Shown: positions 17,938 to 61,586 of the stretch, piece after piece | Numbering within the stretch: the stretch's first letter is position 1 | Layout: each line of letters starts with the position of its first letter | Assembly (NCBI RefSeq): GCF_002105155.1 | Contig: NW_019028989.1 | Coordinates: 682,001-746,000 of the forward strand | DNA from: Lobosporangium transversale | Taxonomy: Eukaryota > Mortierellomycota > Mortierellomycetes > Mortierellales > Mortierellaceae | Reading direction: 5' to 3' | Length of the DNA stretch: 64,000 nt | Position numbers and translations under genes: made by a program | The notes under the pieces: generated by a model | Database searches by the model: none | The model's input: only the letters and a program-made list of their open reading frames with translations | What the model was told of the DNA's origin: nothing

Positions 17938-19099
17938 CAGTGTAAAACAACAGCTGGTACGGAGTTGACGCGTGTGACTTTGATAAATCATGAAGGCAAA
18001 GTCATCTTAGATGAACTAGTGAGACCAGAAAACCCTGTATTGGATTATCTTACTCAATACTCAGGCATGACCGCTGCGAAGCTTGAAGGTGTCACCACAA
18101 GGCTAGTAGATGTTCAGAAGAAACTGAAAAAAATCATCAACTACAACACTATTCTTGTGGGCCACTCTCTTGAGAATGATATGACTGTGTTAAAGGTACA
18201 AATACAAAAAAATGGCCTAAAACCTGGTGTATTAGGCTTGCTGAAACTAATCGTTGACCCTAATGGTTACCGTTGGTCCTTTTTTTTCCCCCAAGCTCGC
18301 TCATCCATTCATTATCGATACTAGTTTAATCTTCCACCATACTCGTGGACCCCCATATCGCCCTGGATTAAAATGGTTAGCACAAAAATGGCTGCAACGT
18401 CATATTCAAGATAATGTAGAGCGAGGACATGATTCTGCAGAGGATGCGCTTGCATGTATGGATCTTGTTAAGCTCAAGTTGTTAAAACCTAAAGGGTTCG
18501 GCGAATATGAACAAGATCAAGAGTCACTGTTCTCAAGATTGCATCGGTTCAACACCCTGAGGACCTCCGCTTTAGTCGATTCAGACGCTTTTGCGGGACA
18601 GTCCGCAACGACTACCATCCGGACTGCAAGTGATGAAGAGGTTGTGAAGGCTATTCCTGAGGTTATTCAGAAACACAATTTTGTGTGGGCACGTCTAAGA
18701 GACATTGAGATTAATCATGGAAAGGTTCCTGAACAAACTCCAGTAGAAAGGCAAGAAGTAGACAAAGGGCGGGGTGCGAAAATTAGCAGTGCGGACAAGA
18801 TCCAAGCTTCAGAGGAAGAGATTCGTGCAGGTATTCGATCTATTGACAAGAGCGTGAAGGCGATTATGGACTCACTGCCATCACGTACTGCTGTGATTAT
18901 TACGAGTGGACAAGGTGATCACCGCGAAGTGTCGAGGTTGCAAGCAAGGCAAAAGGTGTTTCAAGAACTGCTTAAGCAGAAAGGTTCAATCAATGAAGTT
19001 CCACAGCAAAACCGCTTTCTGGAAGAGGATATGCGCAAGCTGGAAATAGCTGTAGAAGATGCAAAGGGTGGTATTTGTCTTTTAACAGTAAAGAAGTAG
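16097..19099 (+). CDS. REX1: RNA exonuclease REX1-like (DEDDh 3'-5' exonuclease)
   Basis: Six exons: 16097-16721, 16838-16962, 17065-17428, 17547-17746, 17941-18195 and 18296-19099, about 790 residues. The N-terminus is a Lys-rich, probably nuclear or nucleolar targeting region. The exonuclease domain carries motif I IAIDCEMC across the exon 4/5 junction (near residue 436), motif II LVGHSLENDM (near 510) and motif III HDSAEDALACMDLV (near 568), so the DEDDh acidic and His residues are all present. REX1/RNH70 family members trim 3' ends of 5S rRNA, tRNA and other RNAs in the nucleus. Intron 4 (17747-17940) contains a TTA microsatellite and a very long T-run just before its acceptor. Confidence 0.9.
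17863..17932 (+). repeat. (TTA)n microsatellite followed by long poly-T
   Basis: Within REX1 intron 4. About 13 ATT units run directly into more than 30 T residues that end 8 bases before the 3' splice site. Confidence 0.9.
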
Positions 19100-20351: not shown

Positions 20352-20739
20352 TTCTGACGTCTTTAATGGATGTTTCTCAGATTATGCCCTCTCTGTTCTT
20401 TTCTGATTAAGAATAATTAAGAATAATATTTATAATGATTGTTGAATATCACCTGACTAATACCCGATATGATCTGTGCAAACCAATCAAAATGGACTTT
20501 ACAACCTTTACAAGGGCCTAATGACCGTTCTATTCAAGTGGGGACTACCCACCAAGCAGAAACAAACCACCAGTAGCGGAAAAAGCTGCAATCAAAATGA
20601 TATCGCATCTAGTACAGCATTGGCCCACCAGCTAATGAGCATGGATAGATATGACGAGACCCTTACAGTTACTATCTGTTGATCTGTACGGTTTTTGCAA
20701 AAGATTAGAGAGGATACAGGAGACGAAAATAAACAGAAC
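20352..20739. other. Spacer between TAF9 and the FEN-Fanzor copy A
   Basis: 388 bases hold the TAF9 promoter and the region 3' of copy A. If copy A ever made a guide RNA from its 3' side, it would lie here. I see no convincing hairpin, and the 39-bp element found 3' of copies B and C is not present. Confidence 0.4.
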
Positions 20740-23219
20740 TTACAAATTTTTTGTGGGTGTGCCGGCACCCAAATACTTGTGTCTAGCGTCGTGCGCGCTT
20801 TGCAGCCGGAGCAGGGACTCTTCCGTGGGCTTGTACTTTGCAGGCCTCTCTTGCCTCTCAATTTGAGCAAGACCGATTCTTGCGATGTTTTCCGCCCCTA
20901 CTGCGTCACGGTCGAAGAATACCTTACATGTCCAGCAATATTTAGAGCGAGGGTACACCGTCTCTAAAAAGCTATCGCAGAGAGGTCGGGGACAGCGGGC
21001 GCTGGTGTAAAATTCGTGCGCCCCTACAGTGAAGTGTCCTCGTGCTTTGACCTAAGCGTTTCAAATGGCAGTCGTTTATTAACAAGGGCTCTATGGCTTT
21101 CCAGCTTTTCTTACTTTTTTTAAAAAAAGCCATACCTGTGTGACAAGGTGTCTCGTTATAGCAGTGTGCTTGCTGGGAACTCCTTTACTACTTTCAACGG
21201 ACCCTAGGCCGACGAAAAGCACCCCTTTTCCCCGAGCATCTTCAACACTCGCTGCACCGCGTAGTCGAACGTAGCTCGTTGAGCCTTTCGTAGGTCCCAT
21301 TTTTTTTTCAGGTCCACCTGGACTCGTAGAATTCTTGAAGCACATCCAAATTCTTTGATCCTATCTGTGTCTGGGACTCCTCGTTCATCCATTGAAAGTA
21401 CTCATTGTACGTATCCCTTCCAAACACAGGGATGGCGCTCTCAACCTCAATCATTCCTTTTTCACGCTTCCTTTTGTTCAACAGGTGATTGAAGCGGAGG
21501 ACGGGGAGGTACAAGAACCTGCTTCTCACCTTTACCTTTTGCCGCAAGTTAGGGTTGTGAGGATCCAGGGAGGAAAACGTAAGGGCGTTAACAATACCAG
21601 TATCACATCCGACGATAGTTGTGGTGTTTACGGATGGGCATCGCCCTGGTTTGTTGAATGTGAGCTCAACGTTTTCAAGCAGTTTGGAGCTCCTCTTCCA
21701 GTTTATGTTTGCGTAGTCTTCATCTGTTAGGTCTTCACCGGCCGCCTCTGAACACGTCGTGTTGAGAAATCCCTGAGAAAGCTCCAGTTCTTGGCTGGGG
21801 TCTTCTTCATCTACGTCAGACTGCTGCTGTCTCTTCTTCGTCTGGGTTGTGTCATAGGCAAGTAGATTCAGAACTAGACCGTTGGTAGAAACTGTTCCTT
21901 TGAGTTTGAACCGAGTTAGATCCTTGTCCTGTGACTGCAGGGATACTTTGTCTCGATATCCAAGAACCATGCGATCGCCTCCAATGTCACAAAAGAGAGC
22001 CTGAATCAAAACCCCTTTTGTTCCCTGTACACACTCAAACATTGCAGTCTTGGAAGGATTGTCGAGAGGCAGAATACGCTCCAGCAGCTGCTTGGTATCT
22101 TCGTTCGCCCAGAGGGTGTCAACTAGGGCGTGTTCAGACAGATACACATACCCGGGTGACCAGGGGGACGTAGGAAAGTCTGAGTATTTTTTCACTTTTT
22201 TGTTCTCCCGCAAAAAAAACTCAATGTCGCTCATATCTTCGTTTGTTTTCTCGACATCAAACTAGGAAAAAAAAAATAAAAATAAAAAATAAAAGTCTGA
22301 ATAAAGAGCATTTGATTGCAGAATATACATGAAAATACCTTACACAAGGTTATACCATTGCGTTCCTGTACTGCCGCGTTCCCTCCCAACATCTCACTAG
22401 CTTCCCTTAGGTAATCTCGAAGCATTTTATTGTAGTTCTCGTTCCACGCAACCTTTCGAATTAATCGAAGATTATTAATCGGGCCAACGTCTCGAGGTTC
22501 CTTGAGTAATCATTGCCTGCGATGGCACAGAATAACACCAGATGTTCATGTGATGACGGGCTTAGTGCTTGGATAACGTTGTCTACATCGTAAACCCCAA
22601 ACTTCCGTCTACGGTGTGGAAGGGGTCGCGCTAGGAAGCAGACTCGTTCGCACGCAAAAAAATCAGAGTCTTGGGATATCACGATTCTATCATTCTCCTC
22701 ATTATGGCACCCTATGCATGGGTCCGCTTCATATGTACACAGACAGACATCGAAGACAGAGCTAAGGCCTGTTGCCAGCTGATCCTTTTCCTGGACGCTA
22801 AGGGTGTGGACTTCTCGAAGACCCTTCTGGATGCGCCTCATGACTTGAGGACGAGTCCATACCCCACTCCGAGAATTTCTCTCGAAGGTGCTCATATCGT
22901 TCTCCAAAGCATCCATATTTTTTTCTCTTATGGCTTGCCGTTCTGTCCTTGCTTTTTCTTTCTCAGTACAAGGTTCCCCATCAATATGTATAGTCAGATT
23001 GTCCTTTATCACGAGAGCCAGGGACCTTCCTACATCAATGATGGATTCGCTTTTCATCTTGGCATGGACGACTCTGCGGAGGGTGTCGTAATAGAACGTA
23101 CCGAGGAGATCTACATGAACAGAATGGTCAGGGTTTGCCGCCAAGAAATTGCCCACGTCAGTTTCCGAAGGTAAAACCCCGCGATCCGCAACCAGTTTGA
23201 AGAAGGACTTCAGCCCCAT
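20740..23219 (-). pseudogene. Copy A: FEN1/XPG-like nuclease + Fanzor/TnpB-like RuvC nuclease, broken
   Basis: Start is ATG at 23219. Residues 1-250 resemble the FEN1/XPG family: MGLKSFFKLV, Asp in HVDLLG (37), HIDGEP (80), YEADPC, SQDSDF and GNDYS. Introns follow at 22262-22338 and 21052-21135. The C-terminal part is TnpB/Fanzor-like: RuvC-I VGCDTGI (21,680 region), PSKHTAITRHL, an E in GAHEFYTSARC, a Cys zinc ribbon (ARCPRPLC, KYCWTC) and RuvC-III FDRDAVGAENIAR. Three frame changes occur: after NLETL (about 22,490), at an A9 run (about 21,300) and at a G/A/G run (about 21,225). Compared with copy B about 330 residues between the two domains are missing. It is therefore probably dead, unless the homopolymer shifts are sequencing errors. 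Expression signals remain: a TATA box at 23455-23463 and a 5'-UTR intron acceptor just before the ATG. Confidence 0.8.
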
Positions 23220-23284
23220 GGTCAATATCTAAGCGAAAGAGAAAGAAAAAGGAAAAATGGTGGTGATGAAAAGAAATGAAAAAG

Positions 23285-23317
<33 letters not shown>

Positions 23318-23454
23318 GACAAAGGTATAAAAGGATGAGATTTTTTATGGTTTAAAGATCCAAAGTGAATAGATAAAGAATATTGAGGGAAAGATACAGG
23401 AACAAGTGGCAGTGGTAAAAGGGATGGGACTTTGAAGGAGGAAGGCAATGGTCC

Positions 23455-23463
23455 CTTTTTATA
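23455..23463 (-). promoter_or_regulatory. TATA box of copy A
   Basis: TATAAAAAG on the minus strand, about 240 bases upstream of the copy A start. A TTCGCTTAG acceptor-like site 10 bases before the ATG suggests a 5'-UTR intron containing the A/T-rich tract. Confidence 0.5.
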
Positions 23464-23507
23464 TCCTGGATTGATCATGAATTTTAACATTGTCTCATAT
23501 AGTTTTG

Positions 23508-23761
23508 ATATCGATCCTTTGCTTCACAGGCCACATCAATCTTTATTCAGTTTCTTTGTTTGGATTGGGGTTTGTTCAAGTCAATAGCAGAGATTGACAA
23601 ATAAATACAAGCTCTCGCATGAACGGCAGATTGGAAACAATAGCATTGAGATACCAAAGTGAGCATTCGAAAATCATCTCCATATACAGCATACAGTGTC
23701 GATGTCGATCCTTTGTTACACAATTTTTTTTTTTTTTTTTCAGTTTCTTTTGTTTGTACTG
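23508..23761 (+). repeat. Diverged direct repeat, period about 188 bp
   Basis: The segments TCGATCCTTTG..CAC..CAGTTTCTTTGTTTG at 23508-23572 and 23696-23761 align with a few substitutions and a T-run expansion in the second. It looks like an old tandem duplication. Confidence 0.6.
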
Positions 23762-25239
23762 GCCCTTGCTTTGTGCTTTGTGAGGAATTTAATGAATAAA
23801 AGAAGATTTATAATTTTGAACAGGGGTAATAAATGCATTGACAGATATGACTCGGTGATTATAGGTAACAACTAAAGAAAAAAAGTCTTTTTTTATCAGA
23901 GAATGGCTTCAAATGATGCTCTTTGCTCCAACAGCCCCAGTACTATTGCGTTAAAGCAGAGATATTCGTTGACTCTCAGATTCCGGCATCAATGGCGGAG
24001 ATAGGAGTGATGTAGTTGCATGCGCTTATTGCTTGGAGTTAAAGCTATCTAAGCACCCTTTCTTACTGGACGATGCCTTGTTAATGGTGATATTGCGCAG
24101 CGCCTTGTGGATGGAGGGAGAGCAGAAGCGAGAGTGGTGGTTTTTGGCGGTCGTTTGGTGTGTGTATGTGTGAATTTGATAGTTGATACCAATCGCCAAA
24201 ACATATGCATCTAGAAATACAGAAGCGAGATTGATACCGACGCGTTTGATCCTTTCCTAGGGATTGTTATAACCATGGGATGATTGTGGAGTGGCCACCA
24301 AAATAAAGTTTGTTTGGAGGCACCAATGGAAAACGCTTGTGTTTTGAACAAAAAAAGACGCCGCGATGTAAAATGTGTTTATACATGTACAGAAACCAAA
24401 GAGATGCTTCAGCTGCTTATTCGTGCACACAGTGATTGACGAACAAAAAAGGAAAAAAAAGCCCGCGATGAAAGAAGGCATGTGCAGACAACAAATAAAC
24501 ACAGCAACTGTTTGCTCACATACATTTTTTTCACCGTTGTCTGTATCTCTTCTAAGCTTTCTGTCTGGCCGTCTAACACAAGGAACCCTCAGAAAGAGAA
24601 ATACCTCGCATGATTGGTGCCAGGTCTGAAAACAACAATAATGCAATGCTGTACGTGGAAGATAGGGTCTAGAAACTATACCATTGATCACAACTGCTAC
24701 TCATGCCCTCTTGCCAAGGACTTGAACATGCATACCAACCCCTTCTTCCTTGCTCTCATAACCGCTCACATCCTTTCGATGCATTCTTCCGCCGTTTATG
24801 TCCACTACATCTGAACCACACACAGTTCACCACTCACTCCAACAGAGATATTTGTATCACCTTGGGTATGATATGTTGTTGTGGTTCCCTCTGGTTTCAA
24901 CAGGCCCAACAAACTCTATTAGCAGTGTTTACCAACCCAGATACATCAAGGGAACGCAAGAAGACGAGCAAGTAAATGATGTGACAAATCAAGTCTTGCC
25001 GAGCTTTACAGGGTGCGGTAGAATGAATCAACTCAGATTGCCCTCCTTTCAAGTCGAGACTACGGCGGCGAATATTATCACTGCTATATTACACCTGTCA
25101 ATAAATAAACGATACAATGGACTCCCAAGAGGATGCTAGGGTCATGCGAAAGTCTTCATGAGTTTTTTATTTGCACAAATAAAGAAGCCAGGATAGCTCC
25201 ATGACAATTTAGTTTTCGGTCATTTATTTCGACATCGAA

Positions 25240-25431
25240 ATGAATTTTCAAGACAATGCCCATGGATTGCTGGATTTTAAGCCCATTTATAATGGCAAAT
25301 TTGCCCTTGTTACGGACGAAGGGATAAGGCACCTTTGGGTCAACTACTTTGATAATGACCAGTCAATATGTAAAGTGGATAAGTTGCATTTCCGAATGAA
25401 GGGAAGTTTCGAGGAAGAACAACATAGATAA
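25240..25431 (+). CDS. Short ORF of unknown function (63 aa)
   Basis: ATG-started frame with balanced composition (LLDFKPIYNGKFALVTDEG, then IRHLWVNYFDNDQSICKVDK). There is no recognisable domain, no nearby exon and no clear promoter. It may be a fragment of a decayed gene. Confidence 0.2.
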   Translation: MNFQDNAHGLLDFKPIYNGKFALVTDEGIRHLWVNYFDNDQSICKVDKLHFRMKGSFEEEQHR

Positions 25432-26229: not shown

Positions 26230-28976
26230 TCATCCTTCAACGGAAGTAGAGTTGGCCTTGTGTTTAGGATCAAAGCGGAATGCCTCAGGAGCTGGCCCTA
26301 AAATCATTTCACTCAGCTTAATCCAGTCCTTGACATCAGGAGAAGCCATCAGTGTCTCAAGGTCATTACGTCCAAAGAAAAGAGGCGGCCGATCATTCAT
26401 CTTTTGCGGAAGGACCTCAAGCAGGCCAACTGGGACATAGCGATGCAAAAAGCCTATGTAGGGTATAGCAATAATAACAGGACGATAACAACAGGTCAAC
26501 TGAATAAATCGATTCAATGACCGCTTCCAAAACTTTTATCAATGGATACATACTTTGCCACTCTAACAAAAAACGACGGGTTTGGTTAACGCCTTGAGTA
26601 TCGGAACCCCAGTGTTCTAGCCCATAATTACAAAATCTCTTCATCATATCGAAGCGCTCGCCAGAAGAAATGTCCCAGTCGCGGTTTGACTTTATCTCCT
26701 CAAAGATCCAGGGCTTCATCAATGCACCACGTGCAATCATGCATCCGTCCACATTGTGCTCCTTCATATGACGATAGTAATCTGAGGGTCCGAGGATATC
26801 TCCATTGCCAAAGAGTGGCATATAATCATCTGCACCTAGAGATCCACGATTGATTTTAGTACATTGGCTAATATAGTCCCAATCAGCTAACTTGGTGTAC
26901 CGTTGTTGTCGTGAGCGGCCATGAAGAGTACCAAGAGCCGCTCCAAAATCATAGAAAAGAGATGTCATAGTTTCGCCAATTGGCTTCTTGTCATGTACAG
27001 CCATCCTAAATTTGACTGTGACAGGAACATCCAGTACTGTCTTCATTCCCTTGATCATTCTCTTGATCTTATTGGGAGAGTTTAGTAGTCCACTTCCAGA
27101 GCCCTAGCAATGCAAAAAGAATAACGTTCATCAACTTTCGAGATCTAACTAGGGCAAATACACAATGTATAGTTATGTTCTAGCCACTGGATTTTTTACA
27201 TTGTTGTAAACAAGGTCGATCGGGCACCCCATGTTCAAATCAACAAAGTCTACATTAGCCACCTGGTTGATCATATCACAGGCTCTAACAACAACATCGA
27301 CCTTGTTACCAGTCAACTGCACGCCAAAAATGTCTTCGCTTTTGTGTCTTCTCAAAAGAGCCAGCTCTCCCTTTTGTCCCTGTACTAGATTTGAAGCCAT
27401 GGCCATCTCGCCACACGTGATGTCAACACCATATTCTTTGCAAATGCGTCGAAAAGGTAGGTTTCCAACCGTAGTGAGAGGTGCCAAGTATGTCTTGCCC
27501 CTAAAATCGATCTATGAATGATAGGACATTTAAGTTAAATATATTAGGTAAAAAACGATACGTCTGCTTGATATATGCTCATGCCGTATTGAGCATCACC
27601 TACCTTCTTCTTCTCGCATGGGCGTAATGGAACATCAGGCGTGTCGGCAAGTGTAGGACCATCTATAGCAGTTGATGTTGTAATACTCTTGATATTTCTG
27701 CCTTCCAAATCTAAATCCTGATCCGATATAATCGTCTCTGTTTCTTTAGTAGCTGTGTTGGACGGGGACAGCGTCTCATTGCTACTAATTTTATCTACTA
27801 TTTGCTCTTCAGACTTATTTGGCGCATTTTGTGCAATCTCCTCTGCCATTTTCTTGACATATGCCTCTGATCGTGAAAAATCGAACTAAATATAAAATAT
27901 TATAATAACAATTAATAATTGCGAACATCTCTTGAAGAGTATGTCAATATCAGTTCAGCCATTTGTAGCGGATGGCATTTTACATACGTTGAAAGATCGG
28001 AGCTTAAGAGTAAGATCATGAGTGAAGACATTGAGAGACTGGGGTTCATATTTAGCGATTTTTTCTTTATCCTTAATAAGTTTCCCGTCTGCGTCTAGAT
28101 GAGCGCTCAAATATCTGCATTTATATCCGTAGTGACAGCTAATCCACAATGTAAGGACGAAGCCTTGTGTTAAAAAAGGGAAAAGGATTAACTTGATAAA
28201 ACATATTATGCGCTAAATGGGACATTAAAATGACCTATTATAGCAAATCAATAAGACGTACTCTCCAGTCAGTTCATAGTTAGGGCAACGGTCACCTAGA
28301 TCCTTCCCTTTTGCTTCCAGATACTTTTGAACATTATGATTAAACTTGCAGCTATAGTGTAAAATCATCCACGGAGCAGAGTACCAGTTAGAAAATATAC
28401 ACCTGGTATCATTTCATTTGCAACACTAATGTATGGGCAATACCTATCGCCTTTATCGCATTCCTCGCCTCTTGCAACTTTAAAGCAGATCTGAACCTCA
28501 TCTTCGATGCGACGTGTAACAACTCGATCCTGAGTTTGCCCTCCACGCTTCTTCTTATTATTCTTGACATGCTTCTAAAATATTCGATGAAGAGAAAATA
28601 TAGTGTTAACACATTGATCAATGAAAGAAGCCATACCTTTCGGTGGCCTTTTAGGCAAAATAAAATGAAATGAAAATAAATAATAATAATAGATAACAAT
28701 AATTACATCTTTACGGCTTCGCTTGTTATTATCATTCTTAGTATCCTCGTCTTCTTTTAAGCTATTATTGTCACCCTCTCCAGTTCGTCCCTCATCGCCT
28801 TCTTTCTCGACCGTTTCACTTAAGGAAGCTATGGTTTCCTCCTGCTGAACTGCCGCTGCTTTGGGGCGAATATACTGGGGTTTTATGGGTGAAATTCCCT
28901 TTTGATAGGTTGTACTTGAGGAAGATTCATCTTCATTCAACATGGTTGCTGTCGGTGCAGGGTTTTCAGAAGACAT
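26230..28976 (-). CDS. DUS3: tRNA-dihydrouridine(47) synthase DUS3
   Basis: FMN enzyme that reduces U47 in the variable loop of tRNAs using NAD(P)H. Eight exons: 28707-28976, 28444-28574, 28262-28351, 27988-28138, 27604-27885, 27200-27511, 26554-27103 and 26230-26453, about 669 residues. After an acidic N-terminus come two CCCH zinc fingers typical of DUS3 ([20 protein letters not shown] and [18 protein letters not shown]). The TIM barrel begins [20 protein letters not shown]. The catalytic Cys lies in [11 protein letters not shown] (near residue 403), with VKFRM and [16 protein letters not shown] following. The C-terminal helical domain is [12 protein letters not shown]. All intron phases agree. 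The exon 3/4 junction uses a GATTAG acceptor at 28139, which restores the second zinc finger. Confidence 0.93.
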
Positions 28977-37719: not shown

Positions 37720-39713
37720 TCAAGTCCTTTTGCTCTCTGAATCAACAGTTGGCTCATGGTTGGGCATATTCTCAAGCAATATAACGCTGGCTCTCTCTTG
37801 TGAATCTGCTACCTCACCAAATGGACCCTGTTGAAGCTTGAGGCTCCGAATTTGATGTTGTTCACAGTCAAAAGTGCCTATGGCTCTCATATGGTCCCGA
37901 CAGCAGTGTTTACATCGTTGATGCACACATTTTAATGAGTAAGAATGATGACAGGCGCCACTCAGGCAAAGGTTGTACACGGGCTTTATCTTCTTAACCC
38001 TTTTGTTTGATATGATTGAATTAATATCCTGTGCTTGATCTGACTCTGTTGCAGCGGTAATAATACTGAGCTCATCCTTGTGCTGTTCCGTAGTCATTAT
38101 GTCTACCTTGCCACTAGCTATCATCGTTGTGCCTAGTACCTCCTGTTCGTTGTTGCTCTTGCATTTCTGTTGCTGCTGCTGTTGTTGCTGCTCAGGCCTA
38201 ATATACGGCTGGACGAACCAGTGGGGCAGAGTTGGGAAACCTTGGTTATCAGCTTGGTCTTTAGAGTCTCCTCTAGTCGAACGTGATGCCTCTGCATCCG
38301 CCATAAGCCTTGCTTTCAATTTCTTCGTAACTGCCCACATTTGCTCGTTGCTCTCTGCCAGTCCGAGCTCCGATCTGAGATCTGTATGAACTAATAGACT
38401 GGTTCTGAAGATCTTGAACAAATGCCCACGAATATGTGCTAGTTTGGTTTCAACTTGATCACAGATAGTCAGGTACTCTTCAGCAAGCTTCCAAGCTTCT
38501 AAATGTCCTGGCTGAAATATACCAGGATTGTATAGGTTTCCTTCTGCTGTCATGACTCCAGCACATCCTGTTTTCTCAAGGCACTTAGCAAGGTCTTCAT
38601 GATAGAGGATGTTACCGTTGGCAATGACAGGCACTAAATCCCCAACGGCCTCTTGAACGAGTCGAATCTTTTCCCAATCTGCTATTCCAGTCAAATGGCC
38701 TTTCATCTCACGCAAACGACCATGGACAACGAGCATCTGTGCACCTGATTCTACAACCATCTTTGCGTACTCGATAGTCTTTTCTACCTCAGGGAAGACT
38801 CGAATCTTTGCTGTGACAGGAATGGGAAGGTGCCTGTGAAGTGTTGAGATGAGAGATGATATCAGGGGCCAATCTTCCATAAGAAACGAGCCGTAATGTC
38901 CACGTCTGGCGATGTGCTGTGGACATCCTAGATTAAGATCAACAGCATCACAATATGGTGCCACCATCAGTGCAGCTTGAAGTAAACATTCTGGATCGTT
39001 TGCACAAAACTAAAATTCAGGAACAAAAAAAAAATTTTTTTTCAAGATCAATGAAATGTAATCAAACTGTATACATGAAGCATAAACATTTTTTTTTTTT
39101 CCTTTACCTGTGCAATCAACGGTCTATCATTAAGTCCTCCACCTTCAAGACCTTCTTCGAGCCCAGTCCATTGCTCATCTCTGTAACGTTTATTTTCAAT
39201 AAACAGTTTGGCGTTGAACATGGGTGTATAACACAGATCAGCATTGTATCTACGACTGAGGATCCGCCACGCTAGTTCTGACTGATCGACCATTGGTGCA
39301 ACTATGTATTTGGGTGATCCGATGGATCTGTAGAATTCCCATCCGGATAGTTTCGGAGGGAAGGAATGCTCGGCTCTACATTTGGCTGCTGCTGCTAGGT
39401 TACGCTGTTCAGCCTGGTTCTTTATGGGGTTGATCATCAAATCGGTGTAATACTGAAGATGAGGAAACTTCTTGAACATTTTTTGTCGATGGCCATCAAG
39501 GTGTGTAGAAGTGAGAGGCTTTGGATAAGACCGATGTGATGTTACTGGTGTTGCCGGTATTGATTCTGATGGAGACGAAGAGGCAGGGGTATATGAGGGA
39601 GTGAAGAAGGACGAGAGGATGGCTGCATTATGAGAGGCAGAAGTGGAGATGTATTTCGGAGTTGAGAGGACAGAAGAGAACGTTCTGCCAGACAGCAGAG
39701 TAGCAAGTCGCAT
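37720..39713 (-). CDS. DUS1: tRNA-dihydrouridine(16/17) synthase DUS1
   Basis: Exons 39108-39713 and 37720-39009, 631 residues. It reduces U16/U17 in the tRNA D-loop with FMN and NAD(P)H. The domain begins [18 protein letters not shown]. The catalytic Cys lies in [20 protein letters not shown] (near residue 231), followed by [24 protein letters not shown] and PVIANGNI. The N-terminus is Ser/Thr-rich and basic ([16 protein letters not shown]), which could be a mitochondrial signal. The C-terminal 180 residues are unusual: a poly-Gln run and then a Cys/His cluster ([26 protein letters not shown]) that could bind zinc. The split intron has matching phase 0 ends. Confidence 0.92.
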
Positions 39714-39765
39714 TATAAAAAAAAAACACAAAGTGAAAGGGGGGAAGAGAAATGAGAAAGAAAGG

Positions 39766-55372: not shown

Positions 55373-56147
55373 TTTAACATGGCGCTTTTTATATTCCAAA
55401 ATGTGTTTAAATGCTGTGCAAGTTATGGAGGGACATTGATGTAAAGATATTTTTAGTGTAGCCCGTTCCATTTGGTCGCGATCCCTTATATTTTTTGAAT
55501 ACTCTTAAATGTATTGGCAGCCAATTGACTCGCTTGTTATTGCAAGTGGTGTGACTGGTCAACTGGTCATTAAAATTAATTTCAGTTTATCTTGTATCCA
55601 CTAATCTGTCGAACCAGCTTAAAGGAATCTTTGCGCAAAGCCTTTGTAGTCATAGGCGGGTCCGCCTCACCTAGAAACTACCGAGTATAAAAGCCAAAGA
55701 AACTTCCTTCTTAATAAAGTCTTCAGTTTTCCCCACATGTCTTATTCTTCATCCGCAGTTCATCTTGCCATTTATCTTTTTCCCCTTTTCACAACAAGCA
55801 TTTGTCTTCCGGTAACTCATTTTGTGAGCTCACCTATAAAGCTCCCATCTTTTCTTTTGACATTCTATGGCGCTGTTTGTAGTCAAGGTTATTTGACTCT
55901 ATTTTCTCTTGTCAATCTTGTTGACACTCTTTGTCCTGCCTTTTCCTGATTGTGTCTATCTTTCTGTCCCTTAAGCAAAGATATTTTTTACAACAATGCC
56001 ACCAAACCAATTTATTATGATTAAGATATGTGGGGTCTATATGTTGTCTAAATAGTCCTCCTTATAAAAAAACACCATCTAGACCAAGCATAGAAATAAA
56101 GAGATTAGTCAAGAAAGCACTGTCGAGCTAATACTTACAACTTTTTC
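55373..56147. other. Intergenic region
   Basis: A TATAAAAG at 55685-55692 lies 45 bases before an ATG (55737) that opens a 70-codon hydrophobic frame. This may be the remnant of a promoter and first exon, but I cannot support a gene. Confidence 0.35.
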
Positions 56148-57165
56148 AAGACGAAGGCCTTTCCCGACCTAGTCATGTTTGTAGTATCTCATGAAAAATT
56201 TTAGACAGACAAATAGTAACCAGGGAGCAGAAGTGAGAATAGGATGTGGGTTCACACATCACATCCATGGGGCATTTATCCAAATTTGTATCAAAATAAA
56301 ACTGCAAGTTTGTCTCGGGCACCACACCATGGGGCATAGAGCTGTTAGTATGTCTGTATTATAAATTTTCATGTAACACGTGTACTGTGAAATATGCAAC
56401 TGATCATATCCTATTGTTGTTGCCGGCTTGGTGTCTTTCCTCCCCATGGATTCAACGAAGGCTATTTTGGTATCTCGAGTTTGGACTCAACCTGTCAGTG
56501 AGCATTGGTGCAACGCATATAAGGCACACAGGCTGTTGACGAGCCTACTTCTCACCTTCACCGTTTGACGCAGGTCAGGGTTGTGACGGTCTAGCGAAGA
56601 AAACGTAAGGGCATTAACAATACCAGGATCGGATTAGACGGTAGTTGTGGTATTTGCAAATGAGCATCGCCCTGGCTCATGGAATATGAGTCCAACGTTT
56701 TCAAGAAGTTTGGGGCCCCTCTTCCAGCTTATGTTTGCGTAGTCTTCATCTATCAGGCCTTCACCGGCTGCCTTTAAAACACGCCGTGTTAAGGAATCCT
56801 TGAGAAAGTTTCAATTCCTGGCTGAGATCTTCTTCATCTACGTCAGACTGCTGCTGTCTCTTCGTCTGGACTGTGTCATAGGCAAGTGGATTCAGAACAA
56901 GGCCATTGGTAAAGTCGTTCCTTTGAGTTTGAACCGAGTTATACCTTTGTCTTGTGCCTGTAGGGGTACCTTGTCTCGATAGCCATGAAACATGCGATCT
57001 CCTTCAATGTCACAAAGAGAGCCTGTATCTAGACTTCTTTTGTTCCCTGTACACATTCAAACACTGCAGCCTTGGAAGGATTGTCGAGAGGATGTCAGTT
57101 AGGACGTGTTCAGACAGATACACATACCGAGGGGGGACGTAAGGAAGTCTATTTTTTTTATTTCT
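56148..57165 (-). pseudogene. Copy C: truncated relic of the FEN-Fanzor family
   Basis: Nucleotides 56540-57150 align colinearly with 21515-22175 of copy A (for example AACGTAAGGGC and TTATGTTTGCGTAGTCTTCATC in both), covering the region before and through RuvC-I. Nucleotides 56408-56470 instead match the tail of copy B (TGTTGTTGCCGGCTTG), and 56148-56186 match the flank 3' of copy B. Everything between RuvC-I and the tail, including the zinc ribbon and RuvC-III, is gone, as is the FEN-like half. Stops occur in all frames. It lies head-to-head with copy B. Confidence 0.8.
56187..56398. mobile_element. Possible 0.2-kb insertion inside copy C
   Basis: Copy B has 9 bases between its stop codon and the conserved 39-bp flank; copy C has about 212 extra bases here. 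The inserted stretch contains an inverted repeat (CATGAAAAATTT near 56190 and AAATTTTCATG near 56366) and two CCATGGGGCAT boxes. This is compatible with a small non-autonomous element, or with a deletion in copy B. Confidence 0.35.
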
Positions 57166-57553
57166 TGTTGATTGTCATGGCGAAGGCTTGATTTGGTAAA
57201 TGTAGATGATTGGAGAAGAGCTGTAAACAATACTCGAAATCCAAAAAGTTAAAACCTGTCGCTGAGAATCTTATTGTTTCGAGTTGTTCCAAATTCATCA
57301 GCCTTTTGTTTCGTTCTCTTTCATACACCTATAAATACGTCCTGCCTCCTTCTCTTTTTCCCTCTCTCTCTCTCTCATTTACAACGACATTGCTTTCGCG
57401 CTCTCACCCGTACTCTTACACCCTCATCCCCTCACAGACCATAACTTTTTGCTTTCTTAAAGGTAAACTATCTCTACTCTAACAACTTCAGCTTCAATCT
57501 TTAGCCGCTTAAACCAACATTGCTTGCACTGTTTTACACTATACTTTCTCTAG
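57166..57553 (+). promoter_or_regulatory. Promoter and 5' UTR of copy B
   Basis: TATAAATA at 57330-57337, then a CT-rich stretch. A likely 5'-UTR intron starts at the GTAAAC after 57461 and ends in CTCTAG directly before the start codon. Copy A has the same arrangement. Confidence 0.5.
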
Positions 57554-60500
57554 ATGGGTATTAAAGGACTCTATTCATACCTTTCAAGGAGAGACCTGCC
57601 ACCAAAGGAGATTGATGTACATGAGCTTGCTGCTGAACCCCATTCATCTTTTGAGCTGGATCTGCTTGGCACTTTCCACAGCGATATACATAATATCATC
57701 CTAAGGAGATTCAGCCGGCAGAGTTCTTTCACTGCCTGCGGCCATGCTATGGCTAGTATCATTCGAAAGATCTTTGGTCCTCTTGCCACAGTGACGATAC
57801 ACATTGATGGGCCTCGCTGCGAAGAAAAAACGCGTGCCTATAGGGACCGAGATGCTAAGCGTACAGCAGCGGATGCAAAACTCGATACGCTCATAGCCAA
57901 CATGGAAACCAAGTCCAATGAAGGCAAATGGGAATCTCGAAGCCATATGATTGCCATTAAAAAGAATCTTCGACAGCTCTTCACATTCAGTCATAACGAG
58001 AAGAGGGAGCTCGTGGCGCCATTCGGTCGATACAATAACTTTGTGATTTGCCATTGTAGAAATGAGGCTGATGTGTGTATTGCCGCCAAATGTACACCAA
58101 CCAGTATCGCTGTGTCTGGGGACTCTGACCTTCTCATCTATCCTTCTATAAAAAGAGTTCTTCGTCCAATCCCTCGTCGCCATCACATGTTTGCACTCTA
58201 TGAGAAACAAGAGGTCCTGCAAGCCCTTGGGTTTTCAAGGAACAGTCAACTCCTGGTCTATGGCATTATATCCGATAACGATTACACCCCAAATATCCCA
58301 ACCTTTGGTCTTGCTACAAATGCTGAGATTATCTCCGCGCTCACTGACACTGATGCCGAAAAGTTGACGGTATCATATGTTCGTGAGGTCCATGCCCGTA
58401 GCCGTCGAACTCCTGCAGAAGGCCAGTTTGACCATTCAATTAATGTTTTCTTTGGTGGGATCCAAACCCAGGCCTCGCAGCAACCAACCGCTGAAAGATT
58501 CCTTCATTACCATGATAGAATGAGGACTGCGATATCTGCTAGGTACCAGAATAAAAATAATCAACCTCAACCCAGGTAAGCTCCTTCAAATGAACATTTT
58601 CCAAAGCATATACAAAAAAAAAAAAAAAAAAAAAAAAAAAGTCATCTAACCCTTGACATTGTTGTTCCTAATTAGATTCTATATCCCTAAACGCGCAAAG
58701 CCGAATCGCTATCGGCCTGTTTTCCCTACCCAGAAAAAGGAACTTTCCCCTAAGAAATATGACCTGACCAACTGCAAACAACACGACCGTCCCGTCAGCT
58801 CCAGCCGTCAAAGAAAGTCCCCCAAAAAAAAAGGAAAAGGAAAAAAAAGAGGATGACAAAGAAGAGGAGGTTAAGGAGGAAAAGAAGAAAAAAAAGAAGA
58901 ACAAAGGGAAGGCCAAGTATATCAGAAAGACTGATAAGACCAGGAAAGTGAAGGAGGCTACTGCCGAGGACCGACGGTTGAAGAGGGCCCACCCCACTGT
59001 TGCATTAACTCTGGGCACGTTAAAGACATGTGTAGTTGCCAAGCTGGACTCTACTTCCGATCCCAATCTCAATCCCGAGCAACTTGCTGCAACAATTCAA
59101 GGGCTCAATCAATCATTTATTAAAATGTTGAATGAGGCACGGATTCGAGCTTTCTGGGCCTGCGCCTTGTGGATCGATAACCTGCTTACCACTGGGCCAT
59201 CCAATCCAGCTGATCTCCCACAACTCCTAGATGAAGTTCTTGATAGCAGGGACTTTATTTACGGCCTTGCTGCGTTGTTGTATCACGGAGTGATGAGTCC
59301 ATTATCTAGGTATAGCAGGGAAGTGAAGAAAAAAGGCGAAGGGAACGTAGCCAAGCCGTCCCAGCTCAAAGCATACGAAAACTTCTATGCAAAGACAGGG
59401 CTTGGTCCTTTAAACCAGATCTATCCCGATTTGGTGATCAGCAAGTCGTCTCGGATGGTCATGGTCCCTGTTCGAGCAGCGCTAAGGTCTCACTATCGGA
59501 ATGCGCAGGTAAATATAATATTATAATATTTTGAGGTTATCTTATAATATGTTTATAGAAATGTTCCTAATCATTTCTTCAATATAATGTCTAGTTTGAC
59601 ATAGATATTCCAGGCGATGGAAGAAGTTCCATCCAATTCTTTTTTGAGCAAAATGCAACTGCCAAAAAATATCTGGATTTCCCTACGTCTGCTTTCCCGC
59701 CTCGGTCTCTCTGCCTAACGGAAGCCTGCCTCCTGGATATATTATGGTCTAACCCAACAGTTCGAGAGGAAATAGTCCAATTGTTGGAACTAAACATGAG
59801 TACCAAGGGGGCTGCGGAGGACAAGATCCTTAACCACAAGGGGATATTGTTGCAGGAGCTGTTTTCCTTGAAAGGATACAAGGACGTTGGACTGCAATCT
59901 GATGATGGCCCTAGAAGGAAACTACGGACATCGTTCTTTACAAACGGCCTTACCCTAACACTTCTTGCCTATGACACATCGAAGCAAAAAAGAGGTAGAG
60001 GTTCGCAAGCTGCCCAACCTTCGGATACTCAAAGATCTCAAGCAGTCCAGGCTTCTTCAAGTGCTCAGCAGGGATCCTCGTCTTCAGGCCATGGTGCAGG
60101 TGATGGTGGTGATGATGGAGACGACGACGGAAATGAAGATGACGATATCTTGCTGGGTATCAGCGATATTGACTTGCTGGAAGTTGATGAACCATTCTTA
60201 GATGGCGACGAGGGAGAAGAAGCAGCTGAAGAAGGTACATCGAGCACAAATCCACTGTCCCCGGTGAGTCCCAGTCCCCGGCGTGAGATCAACTGGAAGC
60301 AGAGATCCCGTCTCCTCGAGAATGTAGAAGTTAAATATGACACCCAGGCAGCATGCCCTCCCCCCGAAAGTACCATTATCATTGGGATCGATCCAGGCGA
60401 GAGGTACTCGATGACAATTGCAAAGTTGGATCCAAGGAAACCTAACGAACGTGAGATCCTCCGGATTTCTAGAGCGTACCTTTACAAACCATCCAAGAAG

Positions 60501-60972
60501 TTTCAGGGCGAGCTAGAGAGGCGAAAGCTTAGAAGAGGAATTACAGAGATTGAAAGCCATTGTAGGTTATCATGAATACTACACATCTGCCAAGTGTCCA
60601 CGACCTCACTGTGACAGTATATTGGAGAATGTTCCTTTTCGATCCAAGTACTGTCGAAATTGTAAAACATACTTTGATCGAGATGCTGTTGGTGCTGAGA
60701 ACATCGCAAGGGTCTGTGAGTCGCAGATAAGAGAGCAAAAACGACCTGCAAAATATATGCCACCGGACGGAGGAACTCAAGGCCAAGCTTCTAGCGGTAG
60801 TGGCGACGGTGGAGGTAGTGGTGGCAGTGGTGGCAGTGGTGGTGGTAGTAGCAGATCCACAAAAAGGGAATTTTCAGATGAAGGAGGAGGAGGAGTAGAG
60901 GGATCAAGACCACCGAAAGGACCTTTGCTGGGTCCAGGAGGAGGGGGAGAGACAAGCCGGCAACAACAGTAG
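57554..60972 (+). pseudogene. Copy B: FEN1/XPG-like nuclease + Fanzor/TnpB-like RuvC nuclease, broken
   Basis: Exon 1 (57554-58575) is one clean 340-codon frame resembling FEN1/XPG: MGIKGLYSYLSRRDLPP, Asp in FELDLLG (36), HIDGPRC (85), NEADVCIA, VSGDSDLLIY and SDNDYTPNI. All acidic metal-ligand positions of that family appear kept. Exon 2 (58676-59508) holds a Lys-rich linker and a helical domain (ALTLGTLKTCVVAKLD, NQSFIKMLNEARIRAFWAC). Exon 3 (59595-60972) carries RuvC-I IIIGIDPGERYS, the zinc ribbon (AKCPRPHC, KYCRNC), RuvC-III FDRDAVGAENIAR and a Gly/Ser-rich tail. Faults are a one-base shift in A-runs at 58824-58848 and an internal deletion with frame change at about 60,555. The deletion removes about 110 residues between RuvC-I and the zinc ribbon that copy A retains. 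The RuvC half is therefore dead. Confidence 0.82.
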
Positions 60973-60981
60973 GACACAATC

Positions 60982-61020
60982 TACTACAAACATGACTAGG
61001 TCCAGAAAGGCCTTCGTCTT
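60982..61020 (+). other. Conserved 39-bp element 3' of copy B
   Basis: Starts 9 bases after the stop codon. It matches the complement of 56148-56186 at 37 of 39 positions (TACTACAAACATGACTAGG, then GAAAGGCCTTCGTCTT). It could be the 3' end of the transcript, an element boundary or part of a guide RNA; this is inference. Confidence 0.6.
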
Positions 61021-61586
61021 AAAAAAATTGTAAGTATTGGCTTGATAGTACTTTTTTTTCTTGGTTAATTTATTTATTTATTTATTTCTGTGTTCTAATA
61101 CATTTCTTCTTTTTACAATTGATGGAATGTCTCGTTTTTTAATGGGACGGACTACACATGGGATAGACACAGCCCAAACGCCTCGAGGCGTCGTGGCTTT
61201 CTTCTGATGACATGAATCCCATGCCTGTGTTCCGTTGGGCAAAAAAGAGAAGCCAACACAGCATGCGGCGAAATCGTGGCTCTGTATGCGGGAAAAAAGA
61301 ATCGCGGGACGTACTATTTGCATGTAATTCACTCACTGAAAAAAAAGTTTTCTTTCTTTCTCACACAGTTGTTCTCTTTCTTTTTTTCTTTCTTCCTTTC
61401 TGATTGTTCATTTTGCATAATTATTAATTTCATTTTATTTCGCTCCACTTCATTTCATCGCAACTGTTGCTTTTTATACAAATCTACTCATTATAAAAAA
61501 TAAAAAGACATTCCAAACACTCAATCTCCTGTTTAATCTTTCTCTGATCCACAACAAAAATATCAGCAAAAAGAGAAAAAAAAAAA
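61021..61586. other. Intergenic region
   Basis: Contains a perfect 14-bp palindrome (ACGCCTCGAGGCGT, 61178-61191) and CT-rich sequence before the membrane-protein gene. No gene supported. Confidence 0.45.

Follow-up and report, generated by a model that had tools for sequence, protein, structure and literature searches.

Two nucleases in one gene

Can one fungal gene encode both a flap endonuclease and an RNA-guided nuclease of the Fanzor type, and what would the first do for the second? The question arises from a locus of Lobosporangium transversale (NCBI RefSeq assembly GCF_002105155.1, contig NW_019028989.1, positions 682,001 to 746,000), in what is here called the window, the whole 64,000-nucleotide stretch analyzed. 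Between window positions 20740 and 23219, an initial annotation had noted acidic motifs of the FEN1/XPG superfamily together with RuvC and zinc-ribbon motifs of TnpB/Fanzor proteins. Both sets of motifs are present, on the minus strand from a start ATG at 23219, in a decayed copy of a mobile element (copy A); the plus-strand translation of 20740 to 23219 is riddled with stops. Relatives of copy A encode the two halves in one protein, as had been claimed for this gene, and one gene almost certainly encodes a FEN/XPG-superfamily nuclease fused to Fanzor1. We read copy A as belonging to a Fanzor1 mobile-element family with an N-terminal FEN nuclease, the FEN half of which works on the ends of a guided break; we give this reading slightly better than even odds (about 0.55). 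The initial annotation did not mention the minus strand, the decay of the gene into a pseudogene, its introns, the element with its flanking TA, or a left flank resembling a target-adjacent motif (TAM). The parts of copy A, in window coordinates, are as follows.

20673..25326, minus strand: decayed family A element (copy A), spanning left TA to right TA; its ends were placed by alignment with further family A copies
23220..25326, minus strand: upstream region of the element, ~2.1 kb, without a transposase-like open reading frame (ORF) by eye; same region in L013
22461..23219, minus strand: exon 1, FEN1/XPG-like nuclease part, open until a premature stop; homology to XPG/Rad2/FEN1/EXO1 via relatives
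22346..22509, minus strand: shifted-frame rest of exon 1/exon 2, including a ~1.05-kb deletion junction near 22380
21136..22261, minus strand: exon 3 (frameshifted), with RuvC-I and an acidic linker
20743..21051, minus strand: exon 4, containing EFYTSARC (alternative Glu), the zinc ribbon, and DRDAVGAENIA (RuvC-III), with a late frameshift; includes the Cas12f1-like_TNB match
20673..20782, minus strand: candidate omega-RNA scaffold region, from the stop-codon position of other copies to the right end, by analogy with SpuFz1

Copy A is a pseudogene. The frame from 23219 to 22461 carries HVDLLG, HIDG, YEAD, QDSD, and GNDYS and is interrupted by a frameshift/stop after GNDYSRNL, with more frameshifts in exons 3 and 4; compared with other copies, it has lost ~1.05 kb, which removed exon 2 almost entirely together with the last part of exon 1. 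The frame from 22261 to 21308 carries RuvC-I, which reads GCDTG in copy A and DPG in most relatives. Profile matches to the window pieces were weak: Cas12f1-like_TNB of Pfam came close to its cut-off (E = 1e-5, 26.0 bits versus 26.3), XPG_I stayed below its own (E = 0.11), and the AvrBs1 and proline-tRNA ligase lines returned by Pfam and NCBIfam were far under the model cut-offs. Because the Pfam matches are borderline, the window alone is suggestive and not decisive; both domains are firm in relatives, and it is there that the domain assignment of the initial annotation stands.

Relatives were sought in three protein searches, each of which scored only the ~8,000 candidates with the most words in common, and all counts of relatives are lower bounds. 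A 766-residue query found at least 7 public proteins, a six-sequence profile at least 5 (four of them new), and a profile of the C-terminal half at least 64, for a total of at least 73 distinct relatives. Nine of the 73 have at least 900 residues, and all nine carry at least part of a FEN profile. This profile was built from P0003, P0004, P0007, P0008, P0009, P0010, and the genomic copy L030, which match it by construction; four of the nine long proteins took no part in it. The complete FEN profile, DPG, the alternative Glu, and DRD occur together in P0004 (Podila verticillata), P0009, P0010, and P0013 (Mortierella alpina), which hold both halves in one protein and thus answer the concern that intact homologues might encode the halves as separate genes only. 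In P0003 (Benniella) and the partial P0008 (M. antarctica), the FEN part and RuvC-I are present but the sequence stops early. Among the 64 shorter relatives, FEN sequence is present in 7 and absent in 57; many are fragments or one-half models, and some of the FEN-less ones may be true unfused genes. All relatives with a named organism belong to genera that we take to be of the Mortierella group, and the phage records searched gave no match.

Structure prediction, which the initial annotation had proposed as a check, yielded a nuclease fold for each half: the model of the FEN half has a FEN/EXO1 fold, and that of the C-terminal half has a RuvC fold, with lower confidence, for which the best structural match is the Fanzor SpuFz1. 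XPG-type entries fill the match list of the FEN half and RuvC entries that of the C-terminal half; the absence of other families from either list is no evidence. The seven metal-binding acidic positions of the FEN1/XPG (Rad2) superfamily are present in alignments (D of DL[LF]G, D of H[IL]DG, E and D of E[AS]D, both D of DSD, and D of DY), the second acidic residue of E[AS]D being Asp here and Glu in FEN1/XPG; the partial model P0006 is without most of them. The FEN half thus resembles FEN1, XPG (Rad2), and EXO1 in modelled fold, acidic motifs, and Lys/Arg spacing, but differs from them in its diverged sequence, with Pfam XPG_I below cut-off, and in being fused to a Fanzor. A lysine-rich linker joins the halves. 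On the Fanzor side, RuvC-I reads G[ICM]DPG in P0004, P0009, P0010, P0013, P0003, P0008, L030, and the family A exon-3 frames examined. The alternative Glu before the zinc-finger Cys (E, six residues, C) appears as EFYTSARC, EYYTSAKC, EYFTSAKC, or EFWTSAKC, with L016 deviating (HGFYTS); this residue is described as a fingerprint of Fanzors in PMC10711439. Similarity to solved Fanzors was found in both sequence and predicted fold, consistent with Fanzor1.

Genomic copies and gene structure

A search of the genome (42.7 Mb, 127 contigs) with the exon-1 frame of copy A returned at least 112 matches, fragments included. Near-full-length family A copies number 13, at 89% identity or more to the exon-1 frame, and a second family, B, has 14 copies with 35% identity over residues 1 to 245, one of which lies in the window from 57554. 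These copy numbers are somewhat inflated, since identical flanks show that some contigs are duplicated. Chance motifs are ruled out by the copy number and the relatives.

Identical flanks on separate contigs were seen for C48/C50, C82/C39, and C59/C53, which points to duplicated contigs or haplotypes in the assembly. L013 and L019 (on C66 and C14) have a common right flank of more than 3 kb and unlike left flanks, suggestive of ectopic recombination or misassembly.

Alignment of 12 family A and 8 family B loci gave a four-exon gene whose three GT-AG introns occupy homologous positions in the two families. The paired splice junctions (marked by a slash) are ...RRRT/GVPSFYI and ...QPQP-R/FYIPKR, between the halves; HYRNAM/FDVEK and HYRNAQ/FDIDI; and LVTQ/VKARG and LVEK/AKSLD. 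Public protein models agree with the predicted splicing, P0007 at intron 1 and P0001 at intron 2. The introns and the fused proteins rule out two adjacent genes.

We considered whether the fusion might be an artefact of gene merging or annotation, or the FEN-like half a non-functional passenger domain. All 20 spliced copies in the genome are broken, and many public models of L. transversale hold one half alone, both of which favor such an explanation. L030 of family B has a single in-frame stop before its natural end, at codon 767 of 1220, and L013, the furthest-reading family A copy, has its first stop at codon 985 of 1082. However, intron positions are equal in two diverged families, fused proteins occur in several genera, catalytic positions are conserved, and the median ratio of nonsynonymous to synonymous substitution rates (dN/dS) is below 1 in both halves. 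In family A the median is 0.51 for the FEN part (51 pairs, range 0.23 to 0.86), 0.34 for exon 3 (50 pairs, range 0.20 to 1.31), and 0.29 for exon 4 (48 pairs, range 0 to 0.75), excluding L022 and every pair whose dS did not exceed 0.01 or that had no more than 50 codons; because pairs have a common history, these medians are descriptive only. Altogether, we regard an artefact or passenger as highly improbable.

Element ends and mobility

Elements of family A measure about 5.8 kb (L013) and those of family B about 6.1 kb (L030). Their ends read TA/TCCC...CAGA/TA in family A and TA/TAGCC...GGACTA/TA in family B, where the slash sets off the TA at each end; the inverted ends of family B are about TATAGYCCGTYCCATT (TATAGCCCGTTCCATT compared with TATAGTCCGTCCCATT), and its window copy reads TGTAG...CTACA. 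In family A, 23 left ends were examined, and L016 and L023 were dropped for misfit to the pattern; TA is present at 20 of the 21 remaining left ends and at all 22 right ends (20 distinct right flanks, those of L013/L019 and L015/L045 being identical). In family B, where L029 was dropped from 19 left ends since its left part is gone, TA is present at 16 of 18 left and 14 of 16 right ends. The left end of copy A was also recovered in a genome-wide terminus search (C13:707208-707326). This pattern fits a TA target-site duplication, and a TATA target without duplication gives an identical one. One family A element directly abuts the right end of a family B element (C37:47445, L042 and L043; C37:43349), and that junction is better explained by insertion inside TATA without duplication.

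The end hairpin of family B and the apparent lack of a duplication at first brought Helitrons, Cryptons, and IS605-like elements into consideration, which were rejected on finding TA at both ends. Helitron- and IS605-type elements are further excluded because the ends of both families are without a CTRR 3' end, and no HUH-like ORF was noticed by eye in the upstream regions of either family.

What moves these elements bears on the role of the FEN-like half, which could instead serve transposition by trimming flaps or gaps at element ends, the fusion protein being all or part of the mobility enzyme. In keeping with this, no transposase-like ORF was seen by eye in the ORF lists of the ~2-kb upstream regions of families A and B, and internally deleted derivatives and ghosts have the same ends, which implies that something acts on them in trans. 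Derivatives include one of 0.6 kb and others of 2.2 and 3.9 kb; ghosts of ~190 bp at L066 to L069 (C57, C1, C35, and C106) retain the first 83 bp of family B and come from a first look at 144 candidates, of which 40 were scored. Against a transposition role, the TA found at each end agrees with a Tc1/mariner-type transposase, of which the 154 DDE_3 matches elsewhere in the genome could be a source, and joining DNA ends is not a known activity of FEN nucleases. We consider a transposition role unlikely. With 154 DDE_3 matches elsewhere and no transposase ORF upstream, mobilization in trans is plausible; since no DDE transposase ORF was seen in the elements, "mariner-like ends" is the fitting term and nothing more.

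A transposase was also sought inside FEN-less elements with the same ends; of the many such ends, six were read, and the two long ones (L063, L064) turned out to be family A deletion derivatives and the four short ones the ghosts at L066 to L069. A DDE_3 match with a 339-residue frame lies in the upstream part of one family A copy (L022, C56:247493-247927) and is probably a nested insertion. B-type ends lie 9.2 kb apart on C85.

Left flank and candidate guide RNA

Bases to the left of the left TA are conserved. In family B, 17 of 18 flanks carry G at -1 and 14 of 18 carry A at -4; in family A1, 9 of 11 carry C at -1 and 10 of 11 carry A at -2; and in family A2, all 9 of 9 carry T at -1, giving the motifs ANAG/TA, AC/TA, and T/TA, respectively. 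Information content is 1.0 to 2.0 bits at the conserved left-flank positions and at most 0.66 bits at right-flank positions (raw values without small-sample correction; duplicates, L016, L021, and L023 excluded). This asymmetry resembles the pattern at SpuFz1 elements with their TAM, and it may alternatively reflect a preference of a transposase. In two nested cases the left-flank bases were already those of the neighbor: a family A element at a family B end (GGAC/TA) and a family B element within a ghost (AAGG/TA), the right flank of the latter differing from the remaining ghost sequence. Both junctions have a few bases in common, so that recombination could explain them and they give no clean proof.

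By analogy with known Fanzors, the protein is probably RNA guided, with a guide taken from the right flank (outside 20673 in copy A); the TAM-like left flank and a conserved 3' region point to this only indirectly. In family A, the stretch of about 140 nt that leads from the stop codon to the right end is 99 to 100% identical in three of four pairs, compared with 92 to 98% for introns, and 92.5% identical in the fourth (indels ignored). Folding of this 3' region indicated no firm structured RNA, with z scores of +0.85 and +0.70 in family A and -2.24, -2.22, and -1.80 in family B.

A possible role for the FEN-like half

The proposed sequence of events, from omega-RNA and guided cutting through end processing and repair outcome to mobilization in trans, is an inference, as are the end processing and self-copying that the initial annotation suggested; what has been shown is the architecture, the modelled fold of the FEN half, the catalytic residues, the presence in several genera, the TA ends, and the uneven left-flank bases. 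The Fanzor half would cut element-free copies of the site that carry the left-flank motif. If it left 5' overhangs as SpuFz1 does, the tethered FEN/EXO1-like half could trim such 5' ends or flaps 5' to 3', steering repair from end joining toward homologous copying from the element-bearing chromosome. The element would thereby be kept, or regained following excision, with excision and insertion probably carried out in trans by a TA-specific (Tc1/mariner-type) transposase. A bolder form of this proposal, "cut and resect" homing, in which an RNA-guided break and its immediate 5' resection by the same polypeptide lead to copying of the element by homologous repair, we consider doubtful. If true, it would mean RNA-guided spread in eukaryotic chromosomes via host recombination and hardly via a transposase.

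Alternatively, the FEN-like half may complete or alter the guided cut itself, acting on the displaced strand or a 5' flap at the R-loop or overhang, so that the break itself and not the choice of repair pathway would be altered. Enzymes of the FEN superfamily are established to cut junctions of single- and double-stranded DNA with 5' flaps, and the lysine-rich linker connects the two nucleases; yet the RuvC of SpuFz1 by itself already cuts both strands, and we judge this role improbable. In either case, the gene offers a concrete example of an RNA-guided cutter and an end-processing enzyme brought together by evolution, and the fusion makes testable what Fanzors do for their elements, be it keeping, copying, or insertion. 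Fusions of guided nucleases with end-resecting enzymes have been engineered, and the present fusion is a natural parallel to them.

Comparison with known systems

The closest counterparts are the Spu-1 elements of Spizellomyces punctatus, which encode SpuFz1, a Fanzor1 whose cleavage leaves 5' overhangs; there, the bases before the left repeat are CA, and CATA serves as the TAM (PMC10432273). Both systems have a zinc ribbon, inverted ends, a basic element with one ORF, many ghosts, conserved bases left of the left repeat, a TAM or TAM-like motif ending in TA, and a conserved region from stop codon to right end. In contrast, the available Spu-1 text names no FEN domain, the Spu-1 locus is about 2.1 kb rather than about 5.8 to 6.1 kb, the gene here is spliced, and the left-flank motif differs. 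In PpFz1 of Parasitella parasitica, also a Fanzor1, the added part is a cyclophilin-binding RuvC insertion and not an N-terminal nuclease, and the TAM is ATN (PMC11423790). TA-flanked Fanzor-only elements and multiple copies in fungi are likewise features of Fanzor1 in Tc/mariner elements and of MCi-2 in Mucor circinelloides (Bao and Jurka 2013, PMC3627910). The GIY-YIG nuclease of PGv-1 is a separate, unfused protein, and the sections covered of the same paper do not mention an XPG/FEN domain.

The initial annotation knew of no description of such a fusion, and our searches of open-licence papers gave none on a Fanzor or TnpB fused to FEN/XPG, apart from one ambiguous preprint sentence (PMC11071296). 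The available passages of PMC10432273, PMC10711439, and PMC11423790 do not name a fused nuclease, and Fanzor and flap-endonuclease terms occur apart in those of PMC12719977. The preprint sentence refers to "Fanzor flap endonuclease homologs (Fendons)" as candidate genes in two viral contigs; its available text gives no domains, fusion, or sequences and does not contain XPG, and the name may mean a Fanzor, a FEN, or both. The phrase could simply be an imprecise term for Fanzor, or it could be a previous hint of a viral Fanzor-FEN link.

Family B element and neighboring genes

The second copy in the window is a family B element with the following parts.

55457..61156, plus strand: family B element (L032); coordinates converted from C13
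57554..58575, plus strand: exon 1, FEN-like part (LDLLG, HIDG, NEAD, SGDSD, SDNDY), open frame
58948..59508, plus strand: exon 2, part, REC-like helical region
59781..60575, plus strand: part of exon 3, including RuvC-I (GIDPG), up to a ~575-bp deletion
60550..60972, plus strand: exon 4, with EYYTSAKC, zinc ribbon, and DRDAVGAENIA

Exon 4 of family B matches Cas12f1-like_TNB in L030 (E = 6.7e-7). The ~575-bp deletion in the RuvC region is common to L032, L033, and L034, which lie at different sites; since one deletion is found at three sites, a defective form of family B has spread, presumably helped in trans.

The upstream region of family B contains a piece of family A exon 3 in antisense (553 bp at 85% identity plus 94 bp at 76%, L030 versus L013), at about 1987 to 2615 of L030; the window copy has matching ORFs, and the minus-strand ORF at window positions 56892 to 57056 forms part of this region. 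Such a piece, as well as the family A copy positioned exactly at a family B end, might suggest a protein aimed at rival elements or incoming DNA rather than at its own element. The antisense piece is perhaps the scar of a nested insertion, however, and we think a function against rivals very unlikely.

Elsewhere in the window, ORFs at 17965 to 19099 (plus strand) resemble by eye an intron-split REX-type DEDDh exonuclease, and two ORF groups on the minus strand, at 26417 to 27058 and 37720 to 39731, appear by eye to be tRNA-dihydrouridine synthase-like.
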